33,515 nt of DNA from Caldilineales bacterium. GTDB taxonomy: Bacteria; Chloroflexota; Anaerolineae; J102. Both the position numbers and the translations under genes were made by a program. How positions within the stretch are numbered: the first letter of the stretch is position 1; the number at the start of each line of letters is the position of its first letter. Location of the stretch: NCBI GenBank assembly GCA_019695115.1, contig JAIBAP010000063.1:1-33515 (forward strand), given 5' to 3'. Below the pieces are notes generated by a model. It searched no databases, was not told the DNA's origin, and saw nothing but the letters and a program-made list of their open reading frames with translations. Shown piece after piece: positions 1,758 through 28,724 of the stretch.

Positions 1758-1919
1758 GGGACACGGATTTCACAGATAAACACGGATTCACAACCGTTCA
1801 TCGAGCACTATCCGCGTTTCGGCGCGCCCACCGTTGCCAGGCAGCAGCTCTCAAAGTTCAGCATTCAAGACAATCAAGCACTATCCGCGTTCATCCGCGT
1901 TCATCCGCGTACCCCAAAA
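1758..1919. repeat. intergenic word-like tandem repeats
   Basis: The gap contains degenerate short repeats such as ACACGGATTTCACAG with AACACGGATTCACA, then CGCGTTCATC repeated up to the next start codon. The ACACGGAT word recurs at 16014-16043. No gene is visible here and no clear promoter for the following glycosyltransferase. Confidence 0.6.
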
Positions 1920-4727: not shown

Positions 4728-4831
4728 GTTCCGGGTTCCGGGTTCCGTGGTGCGTATTTCGTGTTCCGTGGTGCGTGGTGCGGGTTGCGTGTTCCGAGTT
4801 ACAGGTTACGAGTTACCAGTTACGAGTCAGT
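4728..4831. repeat. intergenic word-like tandem repeats
   Basis: The gap after the deaminase holds degenerate repeats of GTTCCGGGTTCCGTGGTGCG, then GTGTTCCGTGGTGCGTGGTG, then TTACGAGTTACCAGTTACGA. No gene is visible. Confidence 0.6.
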
Positions 4832-7016: not shown

Positions 7017-8789
7017 ATGTCCAAGCATCGAATCTGGGTCCTGTTCGCCGGCCTTGTGCTGGTTGCCCTGTTGGCGGCAGCCTGCGGCGGCGCTACGGCG
7101 CCCACCGCTGCGCCGGCGCCAACCGAAGCGCCCACCGTTGCGCCGACGCCCGTCCCGCCCACACCTGAACCGACCAAGGCGCCCGAACCCACGGCCACAC
7201 CCGAACCGGCGCCAACCGAAGCGCCGGCCATGGAGTTGATGTCGAGCTCGGTGGATAGCTGCGACTACGGCGGCGAGATCAAGTCGATCGAAGCCATCGA
7301 TCCGTTGACTGTCAAGTTTACCCTCTGCTTCCCCGACCCGGCCTTCCCGGCCAAAGCCGCCGACACCTCCATGCAGATTCAGTCTTCGGACTATCTGGAG
7401 AAGACGGGCGGCACCGGCGACCTGCTGGAGAAACCCGTCGGCACCGGCCCCTACATGCTGAAGGAATGGCGCAAGGGCGACCAGATGATCATGGAAGCCA
7501 ACCCCAACTACTGGGGCGACAAGGCAAAAGCGCAGACGCTGGTCTTCCGCTGGAGCGCTGAGGCCGCCCAGCGTTTGCTCGAACTGCAATCAGGCAATGT
7601 CAGCGGCATCGACAACCCCGGCCCCGATGACTTCGCCGTCATCGAAGGCGACGCCAACCTCAAGCTCTACCCGCGCGCCGGCACCAACATCTTCTATGTT
7701 GGCATGAACAACACCTATCCGCCTTTCGACAACGAGAGAGTGCGACAGGCCTTCGCCATGGGCATCGACCGCGAGCGCATCGTCAAAACCTTCTACCCGG
7801 TGGGATCGTTGGTCGCCACCCAGTTCATGCCTTCCAGTATCTTTGGCTATAGCAAAGATCTCGACTGGTACAAGTATGACCCTGAGCAGGCCAAGAAGAT
7901 CCTGACCGAAGAAGGCGTCTACGATGCCAACGGCGTCTTCAAGACCACCATCACCTATCGCGACGTGGTGCGCGGCTACCTGCCCGAACCCGGCGTGGTG
8001 GCCCAGGACATCCAGGCGCAACTGAAGGATATCGGCGTCGAAGCCGAGATCGTGGTCATGGAATCCGGTTCCTACCTGGATGCCGCCGCCGCCGGCCAAC
8101 TCAATGGCTTCCACCTGTTGGGCTGGGGCGCCGACTATCCCGACGCCACCAACTTCCTGGACTATCACTTCGGCGCCGGCGCCAGCAAGCAGTTCGGCAA
8201 CAAGCATGACGACATCGTCGCCGCCCTCCAGCAAGCCGCCGCCTTGGCCGACCCGGCCAAGCGCCAGCCGATCTACGACCAGGCCAATGAGCTGATCAAG
8301 CAGCACGTGCCCATGATCCCGATCGCGCACGGCGGCAGCGCCGACGCCTTCCAGGCCAACTGCACCGGCGCTCATTCCAGCCCCCTGACGCGCGAGAAGA
8401 TGGCCGTCATCGACTGCGGTGGCGACACCCTCGTTTGGATGCAGAACGCCGAACCGGTCAGCCTCTATTGCGCCGATGAAACCGACGGCGAAACTTTCCG
8501 GGCCTGCGAACAGATGAGCGAAGCCCTGTTCTCGTATGAGGTCGGCACCACCAACGTCGAACCGGCCCTGGCCGAATCGTACGATGTCAACGACGACCTG
8601 ACCGAGTGGACCTTCCATCTACGGCCCGACGTCAAGTTCCATGATGGCAGCGACTTCGACGCCAACGATGTTGTGGCCACGTGGGACGCCCAATGGGATG
8701 CCGCCAGCCCGCTGCACACGGGTCGTGTTGGCGACTTCACCTACTTCCAGGCCTACTTCACCAAGTTCAAGAACGCGCCCGCCGAATGA
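7017..8789 (+). CDS. peptide/nickel-type ABC substrate-binding lipoprotein, circularly permuted
   Basis: A 590-residue extracytoplasmic solute receptor. The signal peptide ends in the lipobox LLAAAC (Cys23), followed by a Thr/Pro/Ala/Glu linker (about 26-72). The SBP_bac_5 (DppA/OppA) fold is present, but the order is rotated. Residues 86-450 (GGEIKSIEAIDPLTVKFTL, VGTGPYMLKEW, PPFDNERVRQAFAMGIDRE, LLGWGADYPDATNF, then IPIAHGG) match the middle and C-terminal parts of the family. Residues 468-590 (GGDTLVWMQNAEP, VEPALAESYDVNDDLTEWTF, FHDGSDFDANDVV, TYFQAYFTKF) match the family's N-terminal part. Six cysteines in the mature part (82, 104, 449, 467, 485, 497) are unusual. AGGAGG precedes the ATG. 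The ligand is unknown; peptides or other oligomers are plausible. Confidence 0.85.
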   Translation: MSKHRIWVLFAGLVLVALLAAACGGATAPTAAPAPTEAPTVAPTPVPPTPEPTKAPEPTATPEPAPTEAPAMELMSSSVDSCDYGGEIKSIEAIDPLTVKFTLCFPDPAFPAKAADTSMQIQSSDYLEKTGGTGDLLEKPVGTGPYMLKEWRKGDQMIMEANPNYWGDKAKAQTLVFRWSAEAAQRLLELQSGNVSGIDNPGPDDFAVIEGDANLKLYPRAGTNIFYVGMNNTYPPFDNERVRQAFAMGIDRERIVKTFYPVGSLVATQFMPSSIFGYSKDLDWYKYDPEQAKKILTEEGVYDANGVFKTTITYRDVVRGYLPEPGVVAQDIQAQLKDIGVEAEIVVMESGSYLDAAAAGQLNGFHLLGWGADYPDATNFLDYHFGAGASKQFGNKHDDIVAALQQAAALADPAKRQPIYDQANELIKQHVPMIPIAHGGSADAFQANCTGAHSSPLTREKMAVIDCGGDTLVWMQNAEPVSLYCADETDGETFRACEQMSEALFSYEVGTTNVEPALAESYDVNDDLTEWTFHLRPDVKFHDGSDFDANDVVATWDAQWDAASPLHTGRVGDFTYFQAYFTKFKNAPAE

Positions 8790-16009: not shown

Positions 16010-16045
16010 TTGGGACACGGATGAACACGGAACACGGAACACGTT
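16010..16045. repeat. word-like tandem repeat between convergent genes
   Basis: GGACACGGATGAACACGGAA and a further CACGGAACACG word fill the gap between mqnP and the leftward gene. The same ACACGGAT word is found at 1760-1790. Confidence 0.55.
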
Positions 16046-18299: not shown

Positions 18300-18540
18300 T
18301 GCGGGGTGGGGAGTGCGAATTGGCGGGTGGCAGGTGGCAAGTCGCAAGTGGCAGGTGGCAGGTGGCAGGTGGCAAGTCGCAAGTGGCAGGGGGCGGGGGG
18401 CGGGTGGCGATTTGGTCGTTAGTCGTTGACTGTTGACTGTTGACTGTTGACTGTTCCACTCTCTCCCCCTTTTCCCTTGTCCCCCTATTTCCTTGTCTAC
18501 TTGTCTACCTGTCTACTTGTTTCCTTGTCTACCTGTCTCC
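18300..18540. repeat. mosaic of short tandem repeats
   Basis: Three word families follow one another: GGTGGCAAGTCGCAAGTGGC and related repeats (18325-18410), TTGACTGTTGACTGTTGACT (18425-18455), and CTTGTCTACTTGTCTACCTG (18495-18540). The last family supplies the stop codon of the leftward GT4 gene. The first and third families also occur at 25640-25704. Confidence 0.7.
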
Positions 18541-19719
18541 TTGCCCACTCACCTCCCGAAACACTTCATCCATCATCGCCGCTCCCTGGTCCCAGGTGTA
18601 GTGGGTCTGGACCTGGTGGCGCCGGCGCAGGGCGGGGGCGCGCAGGGCTGGCAGGTGGTCGAGCGCCCAGACCAGGCCCTCGGCCAGGGCCTCGGGCCGG
18701 TGCTCGACCAGGATGCCGTCCTCGCCCAGGTACTCGCGGTGCACGGGCGTATCGGTGGCGACGATTGGCAGCGCCAGGCTCATGTAGGGGAGCAGTTTGC
18801 CGCTGCCTTCGGTGGCCGAGAGTTTGGGCGCGACGGCGACATCGCCCAGGGCCAGGTGGTGGGGGGCGTCAAGGTAGGGGATGGGGCCGGTGAAGTGGAC
18901 GCGGTGCTCGATCGCCAGGCGGGCGGCCAGGCGGCGATAGTTGGACTCGTTGGGGAAGCCCATGATCAGGAATTGGGCGGGGTGGGCAGCCAGAGGCGGG
19001 CAGGCGATGGCTTGCAGGAGCAGATTGATGCCTTGATACCAGGCCAGCAGGCCGAGATAGACGACGGTCGGACGGGAAGGGTCGAGGCCGAGACGGGCGC
19101 GCAGGGCGGGGTCGGGCGGACGAGGGGCGAAGAGGTCGGGGTCGATGGCGTCGGGCAGGGGGTGGATGCGGGCGGGGGTGCGGGGGGCGAGGGCGGCGGC
19201 GGCGTGTCGAGAGGAGGGGAAGATGGCCTGCGGCCGGGCGTCGATCCATCGCTCCAGCCGCTGCCAGGCGGGGAGCAGGGGAGAGTGAAGGGACAAGAAG
19301 TGGTGGTCGAGCATCTCGGCCGTCAGCGAACCCTGGTAGTCGAAGGTCAGGGGCGCCCCGAACAGCCGCGCCAGCCCCCAGCCGATCAGGGCGCCCTCGT
19401 GCAGGTAGGCGTGGATGATCTGCGGGCGGAAGCGCAGGGCCGCGGCCAGAGCGGTGGGGGCCAGCAGGGCATCCAGGAGCAGCTTGCGCCGCGAGGAGCC
19501 GACCGGCATGGCGCGGGCGAAGGGCAGCGGCGGGCGCATGGTCGGCAGGCCGGGGAGGTCGCGGCCGGCCGGGTAGGTGAGTAGCCGCACCTGGTAGCCT
19601 CGCCGCTGCAGGGCCTGGAGTTGGCCCATGATGCGGATGTGGCAGCCGTAATCGGCGAAGAAGCCGGTGGGGGCAAGGGCAAGGAGACGCAAGGCGGGGC
19701 GAGGAGGGTCCCAGGGCAA
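18529..19719 (-). CDS. glycosyltransferase family 4
   Basis: A 396-residue GT-B fold enzyme. The N-terminal acceptor domain has LALAPTGFFADYGCHIRIMG, with the early glycine loop, and PQIIHAYLHEGALIGW. The C-terminal donor domain has PTVVYLGLLAWYQGINLLLQ, RVHFTGPIPYLDAPHHLALG and the E-x7-E type EGSGKLLPYMSLALPIVATD, which binds the nucleotide sugar. The first possible start is a TTG at 19719, immediately after a T-run terminator; a second TTG lies at 19692, and no ATG is available early enough. The C-terminal GQGDR and the stop are encoded in repeat DNA. Probably transfers a hexose to an envelope glycan. Confidence 0.82.
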   Translation of the reverse strand: MPWDPPRPALRLLALAPTGFFADYGCHIRIMGQLQALQRRGYQVRLLTYPAGRDLPGLPTMRPPLPFARAMPVGSSRRKLLLDALLAPTALAAALRFRPQIIHAYLHEGALIGWGLARLFGAPLTFDYQGSLTAEMLDHHFLSLHSPLLPAWQRLERWIDARPQAIFPSSRHAAAALAPRTPARIHPLPDAIDPDLFAPRPPDPALRARLGLDPSRPTVVYLGLLAWYQGINLLLQAIACPPLAAHPAQFLIMGFPNESNYRRLAARLAIEHRVHFTGPIPYLDAPHHLALGDVAVAPKLSATEGSGKLLPYMSLALPIVATDTPVHREYLGEDGILVEHRPEALAEGLVWALDHLPALRAPALRRRHQVQTHYTWDQGAAMMDEVFREVSGQGDR

Positions 19720-21522: not shown

Positions 21523-21532
21523 GGGGGGAGTG

Positions 21533-21592
21533 GCAGGGGGCAGGGGGCAGGGGGCAGAGCTTGTCCCTTCGCTCCGTTCAGGGCAGGCTCTG
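21533..21592. repeat. GCAGGGG tandem repeat plus dispersed short repeat, copy 2
   Basis: GCAGGGGGCAGGGGGCAGGG occupies 21533-21557. Next to it, 21560-21592 (CTTGTCCCTTCGCTCCGTTC, then AGGGCAGGCTCTG) is the reverse complement of the dispersed element at 3837-3870. It lies between pfkB and parA. Confidence 0.6.
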
Positions 21593-23314: not shown

Positions 23315-24334
23315 ATGCAAGTTCTACTCACAGGCGCGTTCGGCAACATCGGCGCCGTCGCCCTGGCCGAATTAGTGAAACGCGGGCACAAGGTGCGCAC
23401 GTTCGATGTGCCCACACCCGCCAATCGCAAGCTGGCGCGGGCCTGGGAGGGGCGGGCGGAGATGGTCTGGGGCGACCTGCGGCAGGTCGAGGAGGTGCAG
23501 GGGGCTGTGCAGGGGCAGGAGGTCATCGTGCATCTGGCCTATGTCATCCCCAGGCTCTCGGCCACCGGCGTGGGCAGCGAAGAACGGCCGGACTGGGCGC
23601 GGGAGGTCAATGTTGGCGGCACGCTCAACCTGCTGGCGGCGCTGAAAGCGCTGAATCCGGGGCCACGGCTGCTGTTCGCCTCCTCGTTGCACGTCTTCGG
23701 CCCCACCCAACATCTGCCGCCCCCGCGCACGCTGTCCGACCCCGTCCATCCGTTGGAGAACTACGCCCTGCACAAAGTCGCCTGCGAGGAGATGGTCAAG
23801 GCGGCGGGTGGGCGGTGGGCGATCTTCCGACTTGGCGCCGCCCTGCCGACGCGTCTCATCCTCGACCGGGGCATGTTCGACGTCCCCCTCGACAACCGCA
23901 TCGAGTTCGTCCACAGCCGCGATGTGGCCGTCGCCATTGCCAACGCCCTCGAGAGTGAGGCTGCCTGGGGTCACACCTGGCTGATCGGCGGCGGGCCTCG
24001 CTGCCAACTCTACTATCGCGAGCTGGTGAGCCGGGTGATGGAGACGGTGGGGGTGGGGATGTTGCCCGAGAGCGCCTTTGCGGCGACGCCCTTCAGCACC
24101 GATTGGCTGGACACCACCGCCAGCCAGAAGCTGCTGGGCTTCCAGCGGCTCACACTCGACGATTATCTGCAAGATGTGCGCCGCACGCTCGGTCGGCGTC
24201 GTCTGTTCGTCCGCGTCCTGCGTCCCGCCATCCGCCTCTGGCTGCTGCGCCATTCACCCTACTATCGCCACACGCCGGCCCAGGCCGGCCGGCGTTCAGG
24301 TCAGCGGGCCGGGGTCGCGCCACTGCCCGGTTAG
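23315..24334 (+). CDS. NAD-dependent epimerase/dehydratase (extended SDR)
   Basis: A 339-residue extended short-chain dehydrogenase. The nucleotide-binding motif is LLTGAFGNIGAVALAELVKR (TGxxGxxG, residues 6-12) and the catalytic pair is Y-x3-K in NYALHKVACEEM, with the upstream Ser in LLFASSLHVFGPT. Such enzymes epimerise or reduce sugar nucleotides or related substrates. The C-terminal tail (RRRLFVRVLRPAIRLWLLRH) is basic and longer than usual. AAAGGA precedes the ATG. It follows tetR by 60 bases and overlaps the opposing aconitase-X gene by 39 bases at the 3' end. The substrate is unknown. Confidence 0.82.
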   Translation: MQVLLTGAFGNIGAVALAELVKRGHKVRTFDVPTPANRKLARAWEGRAEMVWGDLRQVEEVQGAVQGQEVIVHLAYVIPRLSATGVGSEERPDWAREVNVGGTLNLLAALKALNPGPRLLFASSLHVFGPTQHLPPPRTLSDPVHPLENYALHKVACEEMVKAAGGRWAIFRLGAALPTRLILDRGMFDVPLDNRIEFVHSRDVAVAIANALESEAAWGHTWLIGGGPRCQLYYRELVSRVMETVGVGMLPESAFAATPFSTDWLDTTASQKLLGFQRLTLDDYLQDVRRTLGRRRLFVRVLRPAIRLWLLRHSPYYRHTPAQAGRRSGQRAGVAPLPG

Positions 24335-25573
24335 GGCCGCCTCCAGACAGCGGTCGAGGTCGCCGTAGCGCATCGTCACCTTGCTGTGCATGGGCGCATA
24401 GCAGGCCATCTTGCCGGCGTTGGTAGCCATGCTGCGGATGCCCAGGCTCCGCACCGGCGCCACCACAGCGCAGGTATCGGCCACCACCTCGCCGCCAGCG
24501 GCCTCGATGATCTGCACCCAACCGGCCTGCGCCGCCCGCTCGCGGGTGAGGCGGGCGGTCGTCACCCACAGCCGGGTGCGCAGTCTCTCGCCCTGCAATC
24601 GTTCGGCGATGCGCTGGAGTTCGCTGAGCGAGGCGTGCGGGCAGCCGATGGTCACCAGGTCGATGGCTGTGGTCTCGGGGTTGGCGTCCATGACCTGATA
24701 GGCCGGAGCCAGGGTGTCGATGACCCATCTCTTGGCGTCGGGCCGGATCAGGCGCTCGCCCAGGTCGCGGGCTTCGGGTGTGTAGCCGGCGACATGGAAG
24801 AGGGCGACGGCGCCGTAGGCGGCAATGCCGGCGCCAAGCGTCTTCAGCCGGTCGCCTGCCTCGCCGCCCAGAGTGAGGTCCTGGGGCAGGGGCGGGAGCC
24901 AGGCGCCCAGGTCGGGGAAGAACGGCGTCCCATCCCCCACCGCCCGCCCGACGAGATAGCTGAGGGCGCCGAAATCGGCCACATCACGCACGGGGCAGGC
25001 CACCTCGACGATATGGGTGGCGGTGCGGTTTTCGTCGAGATGGAAGCCGTAGCGGGCGGTGCGGCCGACGATGGCGGCGGCCAGGGCGCTGGGGCCACCC
25101 TCGCGGTTGGTGTAGGCCCCCACCACCGAGTTGGCCCAGGCGACGGCGCTCGATTCGGCCCAGGCCAGATGGTCGCCCCGCCGCGGGGCGAAATCGGGCA
25201 GCAGGTAGGGCGTGCAGGACATGGTGGGGTTGACGCCCATGCGCACGAAGGCGCCGACGGCCGTGAGTTGCGGCCGGGCGAAGTCAGGGCTGATGCCCAT
25301 GGCCTCCCACCGCTCCAACTCCATCCCGGCCGGGTTGAGGGTGGTGGAGACGCGCACCTTGGCGCCGGCATCGGCCCATTCGTTCAGGAATTCGACCCCG
25401 GCATCGCCCAGGTTTTTGTAGCTGACGCCCGAAATCTGGACATGCTGCACGGGGGTCAGGTCGGCGGCGCCGTAGATGCGGCCCAGGGCGACGACGATCG
25501 CCATCGCCCGTTGCACGCCCGGCCCGGCTGCGCCAGCGAGGAGGGATTGTTCTTCAGGGGTGAGAGAGAGCAT
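24296..25573 (-). CDS. aconitase X catalytic (large) subunit
   Basis: A 425-residue AcnX protein (DUF521). Family motifs include VQISGVSYKNLGDAGVEFLN, NPTMSCTPYLLPDFAPRRGD, WANSVVGAYTNREGGPSALA, TIGCPHASLSELQ and a C-terminal GIRSMATNAGKMACYAP. Three cysteines in the positions expected to hold the Fe-S cluster are visible (Cys120, Cys311, Cys368). Known members are phosphomevalonate dehydratase (archaea) and cis-3-hydroxy-L-proline dehydratase (bacteria). The usual DUF126 small subunit, either fused or adjacent, is not in this window. The ATG at 25573 gives the normal start; an upstream frame extends into repeat DNA. It overlaps the epimerase gene tail-to-tail. Confidence 0.85.
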   Translation of the reverse strand: MLSLTPEEQSLLAGAAGPGVQRAMAIVVALGRIYGAADLTPVQHVQISGVSYKNLGDAGVEFLNEWADAGAKVRVSTTLNPAGMELERWEAMGISPDFARPQLTAVGAFVRMGVNPTMSCTPYLLPDFAPRRGDHLAWAESSAVAWANSVVGAYTNREGGPSALAAAIVGRTARYGFHLDENRTATHIVEVACPVRDVADFGALSYLVGRAVGDGTPFFPDLGAWLPPLPQDLTLGGEAGDRLKTLGAGIAAYGAVALFHVAGYTPEARDLGERLIRPDAKRWVIDTLAPAYQVMDANPETTAIDLVTIGCPHASLSELQRIAERLQGERLRTRLWVTTARLTRERAAQAGWVQIIEAAGGEVVADTCAVVAPVRSLGIRSMATNAGKMACYAPMHSKVTMRYGDLDRCLEAALTGQWRDPGPLT

Positions 25574-25704
25574 GGGAATTGCGGATTGCGAATTGCGGAT
25601 TGCGGAATGTGAGGCAAGAGGCGTGGCCTGCAGCCTCAACCTGCCACTTGCCACTTGCCACCTGCCACTTATCTACTTGTCTACCTGTCTACTTGTTTCC
25701 CTCT
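25574..25704. repeat. mosaic of short tandem repeats
   Basis: GAATTGCGGATTGCGAATTG (25575-25607), then CCTGCCACTTGCCACTTGCC (25640-25670), then CTTGTCTACCTGTCTACTTG (25676-25700). The last two families match words in 18325-18540, but in a different combination and, for the second, on the opposite strand. Confidence 0.65.
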
Positions 25705-25890
25705 CTACCTCCCCCGATTCAACAAATGATCGAGACCGAGGAAGATGACGACGGCGAGGACGGCGAAGACGAGCAGAACCTGCCAGAAGCTGGCGCTGAC
25801 GAAGACGACGAAATGGAGCCGCGACCAGATCAGCCAGAAGGCGATCAGAACGGCGATGGTGAGGAGAAGGGAACGTGAACGTGTGCGCAT
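25705..25890 (-). CDS. small two-helix membrane protein
   Basis: A 61-residue protein: [20 protein letters not shown], then an IWSRLHF linker and [20 protein letters not shown], closing with [10 protein letters not shown]. There are two clear membrane segments with a basic N-terminus, suggesting both ends inside. No family is recognised. The -10 box TACAAT (25903-25898) puts the expected transcript start at or next to the ATG at 25890, so it may be leaderless. It lies between repeat DNA and the Ccr control region. Confidence 0.6.
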
Positions 25891-25897
25891 GGGCGGG

Positions 25898-25906
25898 ATT
25901 GTAGCA
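25898..25906 (-). promoter_or_regulatory. extended -10 promoter giving a leaderless start
   Basis: TGCTACAAT on the minus strand, with TACAAT at 25903-25898. The expected start of transcription (about 25891-25890) coincides with the ATG of the small membrane protein. Confidence 0.5.
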
Positions 25907-25952
25907 TGGCCGGGGCCGGCGCGAAAGAGCATCACCCCGGCATCAGGCCAAC

Positions 25953-25990
25953 TTGCCAACACCCCCTGTTTATGACACAATGCGTCATAA
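25953..25990 (+). promoter_or_regulatory. promoter with overlapping operator before ccr
   Basis: TTGCCA (25953-25958) and CACAAT (25976-25981) are spaced by 17 bases. Over the -10 lies a 21-base dyad (25970-25990) with perfect outer arms TTATGAC/GTCATAA, and pairing that continues inward at all but three positions. A regulator bound there would block the promoter. The start would fall near 25988, leaving a leader of about 125 bases. Confidence 0.5.
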
Positions 25991-26046
25991 CCGGTCGTTC
26001 AGCAGCCGGTGGGAGCGATGCCGCTCCTCGAATTGCACATACTCGC

Positions 26047-26085
26047 AGAAAGGCCCGCTTCAGCGGCCTTTCTGGGCCGATTTTT
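26047..26085 (+). terminator. hairpin in the ccr leader (attenuator-like)
   Basis: AGAAAGGCC (26047-26055) pairs with GGCCTTTCT (26065-26073), and an inner GC/GC pair closes on TTCA with one bulged C. A T5 run follows at 26081-26085. It sits between the ccr promoter and its ribosome site (GGAGG, 26102-26106). It could act as a leader terminator or as a dispersed palindrome. Confidence 0.5.
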
Positions 26086-26112
26086 ACCTTCCCGCTTTTC
26101 TGGAGGACGCCC

Positions 26113-28464
26113 ATGACGCAAGCTGCCACATCTGAACTCAAGGATCTGTATCCCGTTGGCGAGCAGCCGCCGGTGGGACACGTACCGTCGCACATGTACG
26201 CCTGGCTGATCCGGCCCCAGCGCTTTGGCGAGCCGAACCAGGCCTTTCAGATCGAGGTGGTGGACACCCCAAGCATCGCCGACGACGAGGTGTTGGTCTA
26301 TGTGATGGCGGCGGGTGTGAACTACAACAACGTCTGGGCCGGGCTGGGGGTGCCGATCAATGTCATCGAAGCCCGCCAAAAGGCGGGCGAGAAAGAGGAC
26401 TTCCACATCGGCGGCAGCGACGCCAGCGGCATCGTCTACAAGGTAGGCAAGAAGGTGAAAAACGTGAAGGTGGGCGATGAGGTGGTCATCCACTGCGGAA
26501 CCTGGGATCAGAGCGCGCCCGAAGTGCTGGCCGGGCAGGACCCGATGTTCAGCCCGTCTTTCCGTATCTGGGGCTACGAGACCAACTACGGCAGCTTCGC
26601 CCAGTTCAGTCGCGCTCAGGACCACCAGTGCCTGCCCAAACCCAAACACCTGAGCTGGGAGGGCGCCGCCGCCTACATGTTGGTGGGCGCCACCGCCTAC
26701 CGGATGTTGTATGGCTGGGGCGAGCACGCCCTGCGCGGCGATGATGTCGTGTTGGTATGGGGCGGGGCCGGGGGGCTGGGGTCGATGGCCATCCAGGTGT
26801 GCGCAGCGGCGGGGGCCAAAGCCGTGGCCGTGGTCAGCGACGACGACAAATTCGACTACTGCACCAGCCTGGGCGCGGTCGGTTGCATCAACCGCAAGCA
26901 CTTCGAACATTGGGGCATGTTGCCACATTGGAAAGACGCCGTCGGCTATGCCGAATGGCTGAAGGGCGTGCGCAAGTTCGGCAAGGCCATCTGGGATGTG
27001 CTGGGCGAGCGCCGCAGCCCGCGCCTTGTCTTCGAGCACCCCGGCGAGAGCACCATCCCCACCTCCATCTTCGTCTGCGACACCGGCGGCATGGTCGTCA
27101 TCTGCGCCGGGACCACCGGCTACAACGCCACTGTCGATCTGCGCTATCTGTGGATGCGCCAGAAACGGCTGCAAGGCTCGCATTTTGCCAATGACAGCCA
27201 GGCCAAGGGCATCAACGATCTGGTCATCGCCGGCAAAGTCGATCCCTGCCTCTCCCGCACCTTCACCTGGGCCGAACTGCCGCTGGCCCACCAGCTGATG
27301 TACGAAAACAAGCATCCCTACGGCAACATGGCCATCCTCATCGGCGCCCCGGCCGAAGGCTCAGGCATCAGCGCCGCCGAGCCGGTGGCCCATGTCGAGC
27401 CGGCGGCCGTGCCGGCGGCCCGCCGCGACTTCTACCGGGCGCCGCTGCACGAACTGGAGGAGCCGGCCGCCGTACAGCCCGGCCCTCTCGACGCCAGAAC
27501 CGTGCGCGAGTTGATGCACTACGGCGCCATCACCGTCAGCGCCGCCACCTCGGTGGACGAAGTGGCGCGGCGGATGGCCAACTACCGCATCCACGCCATC
27601 GTGGTGGTGGACGAAGCCGGCTATGCCATTGGCCTGGTCTCGCAAACCGACATCGTCCTCGCCCGGCAGGGGCGCACACCCGAACAACTGATCACCCTGA
27701 CCGCCGGCGAGGTGATGACCAAACGGTTGATCACCTGCCGGCCCAATGCCAGGGTGTCCGAGGCCATCACCCTGATGACCCGCAACCGCATCCACCGCCT
27801 GGTGGTGGCCGATGAGCGCCAGGGCAAGCTGTGGCCGATCGGCATCCTCAGCATGACCGACATCATCAACTACGGTTTGGAGACCCCGCCGGCCCCGGCA
27901 GAAGGCGGAGCGGGCGGTCTGGGGATGCTGGCCGATATCTACGAGCCAACCCCGCCGCGGCCCTCCAAGATGGCGCCGCCCGCGCCCCGGCTGGGGCCAG
28001 GCGTCTCGCCCGACCTGAGCACGGTGAACGAGGTGATGCATCACGGCGTCGTCTCCTGCCATCCCGAGACCTCGCTCAGCGAGGTGGCCCATCGCCTGCT
28101 GAGCAACCGCATCAGCGCTGTCGTCGTCGTCGATGGCGAGGGCTATCTGGTGGGTCTCGTCAGCCAGACCGATGTGGTGCTGGCCCGGCAGGGAAGGTCG
28201 CCCGAGCAGCTGGCCGCCCTCACCGCCGCCGACATCCTCACCGCCAATGTCATCACCGCCACCGCCGATATGCCGCTAAGCCAGGCCATCACCTTGATGA
28301 CCCGCAACCGCATCCACCGCCTGGTGGTGACCGAGATGCGCGACAACCGGCCCTGGCCCATCGGCGTCGTCAGCATGACCGATATCGTCCGCCAAACCCT
28401 GGGCGGCGAGGAACAAGCCGAGGACGGCGGTGTGATGAGTTTCTTCGGCGTCGATCCGATTTGA
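26113..28464 (+). CDS. ccr: crotonyl-CoA carboxylase/reductase fused to four CBS domains
   Basis: A 783-residue fusion. Residues 1-415 are a crotonyl-CoA carboxylase/reductase, which reduces crotonyl-CoA with NADPH and adds CO2 to give ethylmalonyl-CoA. [51 protein letters not shown] (NADPH fold), [24 protein letters not shown] and GSHFAND fit the proteobacterial-type family. Asn70-73, Glu156 and His357 lie where CO2-binding residues are described; the Phe position is Tyr155, normal for this subgroup. A linker follows, then CBS domains at about 463-520, 531-590, 637-694 and 705-763. All four keep the nucleotide-contacting G-x2-S-x-T-D motif (GLVSQTD, GILSMTD, GLVSQTD, GVVSMTD). Family enzymes end near residue 430. 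GGAGG precedes the ATG. Confidence 0.92.
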
Positions 28465-28490
28465 AACGCGAGTTCCGCTGCTGACTCGAC

Positions 28491-28540
28491 GAAGGACGAA
28501 GGACGATAGACGAAAGCAATCTCTTCGTCCTTCGTCCTTC
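28491..28540. repeat. 16-bp inverted repeat after ccr
   Basis: GAAGGACGAAGGACGA (28491-28506) and TCGTCCTTCGTCCTTC (28525-28540) are perfect inverted arms around an 18-base loop, each built from tandem GAAGGAC words. It may end the ccr transcript, although no T-run follows. Confidence 0.6.
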
Positions 28541-28575
28541 TCCTATTGACCGCCAGGTTGATTTGTTATGAAGGT

Positions 28576-28650
28576 CGTGAACCGTGAAACGTGAAACGTG
28601 AGAAAACGTCGGCGATCTTCACGCATCACGCATCACGCATCACGTTTCAT
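28576..28650. repeat. tandem CGTGAAA and CACGCAT repeats forming a dyad
   Basis: CGTGAAACGTGAAACGTGAG near 28583-28602 and CATCACGCATCACGCATCAC near 28624-28643 are tandem words. TGAAACGTGA (28592-28601) is repeated inverted as TCACGTTTCA (28640-28649). The rest of the gap to 28724 is A/T-richer with a TATAAC at 28681-28686 that could be a -10 for the next gene. Confidence 0.5.
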
Positions 28651-28724
28651 GACCGAGTATCATTTCTTTGGCTAGCCATCTATAACTTCTTCGACATCAT
28701 CGTTCCCCAATGCCCCATTGACCT

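Follow-up and report, generated by a model that had tools for sequence, protein, structure and literature searches.

Tandem heptamers as such are already known, as far as the accessible parts of four papers go (PMC4679880, PMC4692102, PMC2700814, PMC6749651). Long simple-sequence repeats have units of 5-11 nt, heptanucleotides being the commonest, and the excess of heptamers, on record since at least 2007, has been put down to polymerase slippage, with no more than a guess about polymerase contacts for a mechanism (Mrazek 2007, as told in the accessible parts of PMC4679880 and PMC4692102). Among the individual words described there, TAACTGA forms direct repeats in Beggiatoaceae, Cyanobacteria and Bacteroidetes (PMC4679880), and quadruplex-forming GGGNATC heptamers are found in Xanthomonas and Nostoc, where the G-rich sequence lies antisense within 50 bp upstream of open reading frames or sense within 50 bp of stops (PMC4692102). 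Geobacter metallireducens carries multi-copy elements with four or five tandem 7-mers or four 8-mers (accessible part of PMC2700814), and REP elements are GTAG/CGTC-tagged palindromes (likewise in part, PMC3733652).

In our best reading, the arrays described here are a variant of these known heptamer repeats. What is new in the present analysis is their strand order, in which G-rich words are followed head-to-head by C-rich words with a single switch between them. No description of such a single-switch order was found in the accessible parts of the heptamer-repeat literature (PMC4679880, PMC4692102, PMC2700814, PMC6749651), and six literal array sequences, mostly words of this genome, gave no match in the open-access papers searched.

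The window is a whole contig of 33,515 nt, from a genome of 5.99 Mb in 135 contigs. The initial annotation had listed seven gaps between genes as being filled with short tandem words, and arrays with a period of 7, 8, 10 or 14 (Tandem Repeats Finder) are indeed present in 7 of these 7 gaps. Across the gaps of the window the unit is mostly 7 nt long; CTTGTCTA has 8 nt and ATCCGCGTTC has 10 nt. Words are given here on the plus strand, except for two entries without strand. At 18321..18408, a G-type (G-rich) heptad mosaic of TGGCAGG, TGGCAAG and TCGCAAG runs through 12.6 units with a 35-bp higher-order repeat (Tandem Repeats Finder and the sequence itself). It is followed at 18425..18455 by GTTGACT x4.4, which is entered in the 7-nt register from TTGGTCG, TTAGTCG and TTGACTG, such that between 18321 and 18455 the word shifts from TGGCAGG to TTGACTG while the register continues. 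A 21-mer of the GTTGACT array has 8 matches in the whole genome, its reversed control none. The next array (18492..18543) consists of the C-type 8-mers CTTGTCTA and CCTGTCTA, and the minus-strand GT4 gene terminates within it; the gene ends in ...SGQGDR* with its TAG at 18531-18529, so that the claim of a stop codon inside a word stands. The corresponding claim that words form the first codons of a lipoprotein gene was not confirmed for the single lipoprotein-like gene checked (7017-8789, SBP family 5), which has an AGGAGG motif before its start and a period-18 coding repeat without the words, and no second lipoprotein candidate was found.

A second gap opens with a G-type ATTGCGG/ATTGCGA array (25576..25606) that adjoins the start of the minus-strand gene 24296-25573, and goes on with C-type TGCCACT heptads passing into TCTACTTG octads (25642..25710). 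Recurrence of one word at these two loci, as had been noticed, is exact for CTTGTCTACCTGTCTAC (18500-18516 and 25676-25692), and the two loci have a 25-mer in common, starting at 18500 (18500-18524) and at 25676. When up to 3 mismatches are allowed, CTTGTCTACCTGTCTAC matches 7 times where 0.02 matches would be expected, a number that none of 100 shuffles attains. The other recurrence put forward, that of ACACGGAT (1761, 1780 and 16015), fails to reach significance by itself, 7 of 100 shuffles equalling its 3 matches. ACACGGAT words occupy 1761..1910 together with ATCCGCGTTC x2.8, and the text of this 10-mer links the gap to 5 others. At 4728..4827, the heptads GTTCCGG, CGTGGTG, CGGGTTC and GTTACGA form a mosaic in a single register; GAACACG x3 (16023..16043) belongs to the commonest word class, AACACGG; and GGCAGGG x3.7 (21532..21557) is followed by what is, by eye, a variant of a 27-nt core known from other gaps. 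Without strand are the head-to-head pair GACGAAG x3.9 / CTTCGTC x3.3 (28488..28544) and a dispersed element (28555..28690, approximate borders set by eye) with head-to-head arrays of CGTGAAA (28576-28601) and TCACGCA (28619-28644), which non-periodic 20-mers tie to 3 other gaps in a 1.23-Mb sample. Two further observations on the window are an alcohol-dehydrogenase-like protein with four CBS domain matches in one reading frame (25906-28464) and a palindromic dispersed repeat around TCAGGTGCGACGCACTTCGA that links 4 gaps (after 14165 in the window, and L260, L262 and L272).

That the process is genome-wide, as first supposed, is shown by strict arrays in 133 of 639 gaps of at least 30 nt. Exact period-7 arrays of at least 18 nt each number 335 in 1,233,515 bases of the genome, as compared to 16 arrays of period 6, 21 of period 8 and 9 of period 9, and in a part of 433,515 bases 104 such arrays were observed vs 0 in a Markov-2 simulation (a single simulation of this part). 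As in long simple-sequence repeats, units of 7 nt thus exceed both other unit lengths and chance. The arrays are also chiefly non-coding: 94 of the 104 lie between genes, 8 lie in genes and 2 straddle a border, while 87% of the DNA is coding (genes were delimited with a simple hexamer-based caller of our own, without a published annotation). Autocorrelation of intergenic DNA peaks at lags 7, 14, 21, 28, 35 and 42 in this genome only among three compared, and 9.8% of its intergenic bases lie in lag-7 arrays, vs 0.8% in the congener G001 and 0.5% in G049.

The words belong to a limited vocabulary, which recurs. A total of 419 arrays of at least 16 nt fall into 83 word classes, the top six of which comprise 172 arrays, with AACACGG (38), ACGCCTC (36) and ACCACGC (26) leading. 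Where CACG is followed by three bases and another CACG, 7 of the 64 possible triplets (GAA, CCT, TTT, CAA, CAC, CAT and AAA) account for 195 of 217 cases in the 434-kb part, and the triplets alternate as whole units, CCT-TTT 16 times and TTT-CCT 13 times. The words thus act like the letters of an alphabet built on an invariant four-base anchor, rather than like a swarm of point mutants. Text is also shared between gaps: 1,269 20-mers are common to different gaps, 583 of them non-periodic and 686 mosaic. All 11 copies of the 27-nt core AGCTTGTCCTGAG... are embedded in TGGCAGG/TCGCAAG words, and a second short core, GAGCACGCCYACGTGCGAAC, occurs in 8 copies, mostly adjoining CGTG words. The exchange of words between loci that had been inferred from the window is well supported by these shared 20-mers and the core, though exchange itself was not seen happening. 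Among side observations, a dispersed palindrome, CGACTAAAGTCGTTACTACG, links 6 gaps, including those at L064 13656, L066 5653, L275 3336, L277 10707 and L295 19085.

Such shared cores invite the idea of a composite mobile element, REP- or MITE-like, with a G-rich and a C-rich end, which would be mobilized by a Y1 transposase or some other enzyme and whose tandem parts would then expand. That non-periodic cores travel with set words in fixed orientation (AGCTTGTCCTGAG in 11 of 11 copies, GAGCACGCCYACGTGCGAAC in 8 copies, mostly adjoining CGTG words) and that an element of roughly 130 bp with both arms links 4 gaps speaks in its favor, as do 3 Y1_Tnp matches in this genome and none in two congeners. 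However, most array gaps lack a shared non-periodic core (only 44 of 133 are in families joined by non-periodic 20-mers), the arms are not inverted copies of one another, and Y1_Tnp is not significantly commoner in word-rich genomes (15/17 vs 31/44, p 0.20). Short dispersed non-periodic cores among the words are a likeness to REP elements, but neither a tag nor a link to a transposase is shown for the arrays here (PMC3733652, accessible part). A constant core or terminal inverted repeats, which would mark REP or MITE elements, are not found as a rule, although a subset of gaps does carry cores. We therefore regard a mobile element as quite unlikely to be the general explanation.

Comparison with relatives shows that the arrays are extra DNA relative to a congener. 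CTTGTCTACTTGTCTAC occurs 59 times in this genome, is absent from both congeners and has 16 copies in G049, which is from another family. Heptads anchored on CACG number 1,419 here (reversed control, 21), 119 in G015 of the same family and 3 in the congener G001, which has 9 heptamer arrays in 669,552 bases. Such heptads reach at least 10 matches in 17 of 61 genomes, a scattered distribution of the kind seen for long simple-sequence repeats. G003 and G008 also give high counts for the reversed CACG control (34 and 62, respectively), which suggests that these two genomes hold further low-complexity heptads. Using 670 kb of the congener (a smaller 277-kb sample gave 2 pairs only), we found 26 conserved neighbor pairs, 6 of which carry arrays in this genome. 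In the four well-matched ones the gap measures 293, 182, 180 and 162 bp here vs 81, 68, 9 and 4 bp in the congener, which, together with the period-7 tandem arrays, bears out the local expansion of repeats that had been proposed. Two more array gaps rest on weak orthology (38% identity), one of 203 vs 206 bp, i.e., without a length difference, and one of 160 vs -4 bp. The 20 array-free pairs have a median gap of 70 bp here and 46 bp in the congener.

The joint between the co-oriented genes for the beta and gamma subunits of a 2-oxoacid oxidoreductase, with 162 bp of words in this genome vs 4 bp in the congener, was surveyed more widely. Of 30 loci, 9 were dropped as weak paralogue matches, and 1 of the 21 used had no neighbor gene, which leaves 20 genomes with both genes. 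In 16 of these 20 the gap is 4-56 bp long, often with a GGAG motif. G003 has 168 bp of different words (TACCAATC...), G039 has 70 bp with ACGAGTA-like words, and G036 has 122 bp without obvious words. Given the short gap in most genomes and the unlike words in this genome and in G003, the extra DNA is most simply derived, a recent insertion, and the joint has been filled more than once. The presence of arrays inside a conserved gene pair and the lawful differences between relatives also make an assembly artefact very unlikely as their source. An artefact, or a lack of enrichment, would have refuted the initial annotation, and neither was encountered; what it lacked was the strand architecture, the absence of the arrays from the closest relative and the prior work on heptamers.

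The strand architecture is strict. Along the contig strand, 45 of the 46 gaps with both array types read G then C and 0 read C then G (permutation mean 13.6, maximum 26); within mixed gaps there are 47 transitions from G to C and 1 from C to G, and the single exception reads GCGC. By eye, this GCGC order is that of the window gap 28465-28724, with its two head-to-head pairs. When this genome and other taxa are taken together, the strand leaving a gene is the G-rich one in 369 of 468 arrays, at starts and stops alike: near starts in 182/204 co-oriented and 21/25 divergent cases, near stops in 135/201 co-oriented and 31/38 convergent cases. Arrays with as many G as C, including the commonest class AACACGG, were excluded from these polarity counts and included in the count of outgoing strands per word. 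The latter shows orientation to be a property of the word, since CCGTGTT is outgoing in 35 of 37 arrays and even the G-free AACAATC in 8 of 9. Arrays that share a gap are not independent, and tests per gap were therefore run alongside. In co-oriented gaps of this genome, the first half holds 69 G-rich and 49 C-rich arrays and the second half 10 and 125 (p 2e-19; with the longest array per gap only, p 2e-6), the stop side being less polar than the start side (69 to 49 vs 125 to 10).

The rule is not confined to this genome. In loci of other taxa alone, 121 of 149 arrays in co-oriented and divergent gaps conform to it (p 7e-15; counted per gap, 53/66, p 6e-7), as do 43 of 45 in Desulfobacterota loci, and mixed gaps read G then C in 22 of 26 cases and C then G in 1. 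The 13 Verrucomicrobiota loci alone gave no significant polarity. The loci of other taxa had been picked for holding one C-type word, and 80 loci among the matches listed were pooled with this genome for the polarity counts given above.

One way to obtain such borders without any copying between gaps is slippage by 7 nt that is blind to the word, followed by selection against G-rich words upstream of starts and against C-rich ones downstream of stops. Polymerase slippage has already been proposed for the heptamer excess (PMC4679880 and PMC4692102, accessible parts), and scrambled words, except one that gave none, form arrays in viral contigs too, in line with slippage of this word-blind kind. 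In addition, polarity in this genome is more pronounced at starts than at stops, a difference that could equally result from selection at starts, and Shine-Dalgarno cores are rarer in co-oriented gaps with arrays (25/111) than in those without (123/295), so that leaders may be constrained. GC skew in the same gaps begins at +0.24 beside the stop and falls to -0.47 beside the start where arrays are present, the corresponding values without arrays being -0.04 and -0.17; start-side polarity is thus partly present without arrays, whereas stop-side polarity is missing. Selection would need two rules, C-rich before starts and G-rich after stops, and the second fails in array-free gaps, where the lack of a G excess after stops (-0.04) implies that selection for it is not general. 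Moreover, convergent gaps also fit the rule (31/38), an order kept in 45 of 46 gaps would be very strict if selection on leader composition had set it, and the G-free AACAATC nonetheless retains one outgoing strand (8/9). Slippage alone explains the 7-nt unit but not the text common to gaps, and neither 83 classes for 419 arrays nor shared mosaics follow from it. Slippage plus selection thus seems unlikely to us, though it remains a serious contender.

We tentatively favor a different reading, without being able to call it probable and with its mechanism unproven: heptanucleotide arrays may grow inward from both sides of a gap, by copying directed by 3′ ends between arrays together with 7-nt slippage. 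A DNA break or the collapse of a fork between genes would create two outward-pointing 3′ ends, each of which could anneal by a few bases (e.g., the constant CACG) to a matching array elsewhere. The annealed end would then copy some heptads, slip by 7-nt steps or switch template, and the two extended ends would finally be joined. Because a 3′ end can copy only the same strand of another array, words would remain mostly G-rich outward wherever they are inserted, which amounts to a memory of orientation. This would account in one step for polarity at both kinds of border, the single switch, unlike arms, orientation memory, travelling cores and mosaics, but it is still inference; copying, break and end-joining are all inferred, and no such event was observed. 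Complementarity between the left and right arms of a gap barely exceeds that between arms taken from different gaps (14 inverted 12-mers within vs 11.2 between), as independent growth of the two ends would lead one to expect. Shorter inverted matches are somewhat enriched within gaps (8-mers 36 vs 26.8, 10-mers 22 vs 14.9, p about 0.02), so that fold-back synthesis stays possible. This genome lacks Ku, which was found in 1 of the 61 genomes searched; joining would thus need a Ku-free route, and end joining of the Ku type is excluded as a general one. Most of the arrays are probably filler, either neutral or selfish, and tolerated nowhere but between genes.

In telomeric repeats, the G-rich strand is the outgoing 3′ strand, and fused telomeres read head-to-head; the arrays here match both properties. 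This raises the possibility that a terminal polymerase or an RNA-templated reverse transcriptase adds G-rich heptads to both 3′ ends, which are then fused. Such addition predicts much of what is seen, i.e., outward G-rich strands, one head-to-head switch, unlike left and right words, units of 7-8 nt and non-homologous arms, and RVT_1 is somewhat commoner in genomes with many CACG heptads (11/17 vs 15/44, p 0.044). Still, 6 of the 17 word-rich genomes have no RVT_1, including G047 (97% complete), such that a telomerase-type reverse transcriptase is not a regular feature of the bearers; 83 different words would be hard to template, Ku is absent, and the non-periodic cores common to gaps call for copying of DNA. 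We consider addition of this kind very unlikely. Somewhat less so, though in our view still rather improbable, is a broader notion of break-end capping, telomere-like without a telomere, in which both 3′ ends gain mostly G-rich words of 7-8 nt and the arrays are fused head-to-head intergenic scars in many phyla; extension would proceed either by copying existing arrays, akin to recombination-based lengthening of telomeres, or by terminal synthesis.

As to genes that might be required for the arrays, none of three candidates was supported: RVT_1 is missing in 6 of 17 word-rich genomes, Y1 transposase shows no significant association (p 0.20), and Ku is present in 1 of 61 genomes.

The arrays might also be functional RNA or protein-binding elements under selection, such as intercistronic hairpins, terminators or regulator sites. 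Their strict architecture (45 of 46 mixed gaps) is compatible with this, and regulatory roles have been proposed or discussed for the TAACTGA and GGGNATC heptamers (accessible parts of PMC4679880 and PMC4692102). However, RNA from 88 array gaps folds no more stably than that from 88 array-free ones (mean z -1.33 vs -1.51 against dinucleotide shuffles; energy per nt is weaker, -0.249 vs -0.318), an Rfam search of the window gave no match and hence no known structured RNA, and the congener manages without arrays at the same genes. A functional role for the arrays in general therefore strikes us as highly improbable. A simple hairpin or inverted-repeat model was likewise discarded, with inverted pairing within gaps at or just above the level between gaps and RNA folding unenriched.

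Returning to the described systems, long simple-sequence repeats too are tandem, favor 7 nt, are intergenic and are patchy among relatives; the difference is that one genome here has many words, mosaics in one register and a strict head-to-head order (accessible parts of PMC4679880 and PMC4692102). The TAACTGA repeats are similarly intergenic, mixed with related heptamers and scattered over phyla, and in the Bacteroidetes examples near relatives have shorter, repeat-free gaps, but they consist of one word located mostly just upstream of starts, whereas here 83 classes have their own outgoing strands (PMC4679880, accessible part). TAACTGA itself is not among the 40 commonest of these classes. 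GGGNATC heptamers have the same border polarity as the arrays here (369/468 G-rich outward) but differ in that the commonest outgoing words here mostly lack a GGG tract, and quadruplexes thus cannot be the common cause (PMC4692102, accessible part). The Geobacter elements resemble the arrays as tandem 7- and 8-mer families, yet have been described as RNAs or sites for regulators whose copy number is fixed, while number and words vary freely here (PMC2700814, accessible part). Finally, tandem repeats of archaeal Borgs are also fast-evolving and arise independently, but they are found on extrachromosomal elements of archaea (PMC9879509, accessible part).

Any model will have to account for the single-switch rule, which serves as a mechanistic fingerprint and lends itself to checking in many genomes at once. 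If end-directed copying holds true, intergenic DNA in these bacteria would record past breaks, and gaps between co-oriented neighbors could be filled within the divergence of one genus. The arrays hint at an unstudied bacterial way to patch or grow intergenic DNA. For annotation, it matters that the words can carry stop codons and accompany fewer Shine-Dalgarno motifs. Separately, the two bases ahead of start codons (-2 and -1) show a strong preference for C in this genome, which holds for array-free gaps as well (61% and 50%) and is perhaps a leader signature of the lineage.

How far the words extend beyond this lineage can be judged from a 25-mer of (CACGTTT)n, whose listed matches come from about a dozen phyla or more. 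The loci listed belong to Anaerolineae and other Chloroflexi, Desulfococcaceae, Verrucomicrobia, Uhrbacteria, Betaproteobacteria, Thermoanaerobaculia and Nitrospirae, and further to Omnitrophota, Bacteroidales, Gemmatimonadota, an FCB-group bacterium, a gammaproteobacterium and a Bacillota bacterium; the phylum labels of L109-L188 are our own assignments, based on record titles. In 20 genomes chosen by this 25-mer, CACG heptads exceed the reversed control, though all are carriers by construction; the Desulfococcaceae genome has 1,539 vs 0. Overlap in distinct words with other taxa is weak (4/46 vs 1.7 expected, 2/29 vs 1.0), and overlap in tokens reaches nominal significance for one family (G028, p 0.027) but not for the others. 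Transfer of words between phyla was discarded, since scrambled control words recur as often and the (CACGTTT)n genomes had been selected by that very word. In viral contigs, scrambled words gave 4, 0, 9 and 12 stretches vs 13 for CACGTTT, and the reverse of GTTGACT gave 31 vs 4 for GTTGACT. With scrambled words about as frequent there, we take it that the process rather than the vocabulary is widespread across taxa. At two of the loci, other word families stand beside the arrays, GTGCTTGGTGCTTGG in Bacteroidales (L129) and TTCCGTGGTTTCCGTGG in a gammaproteobacterium (L174). In the viral contigs L229-L259, triple repeats of CAACTGA, which is close to the published TAACTGA, are common (31 stretches).
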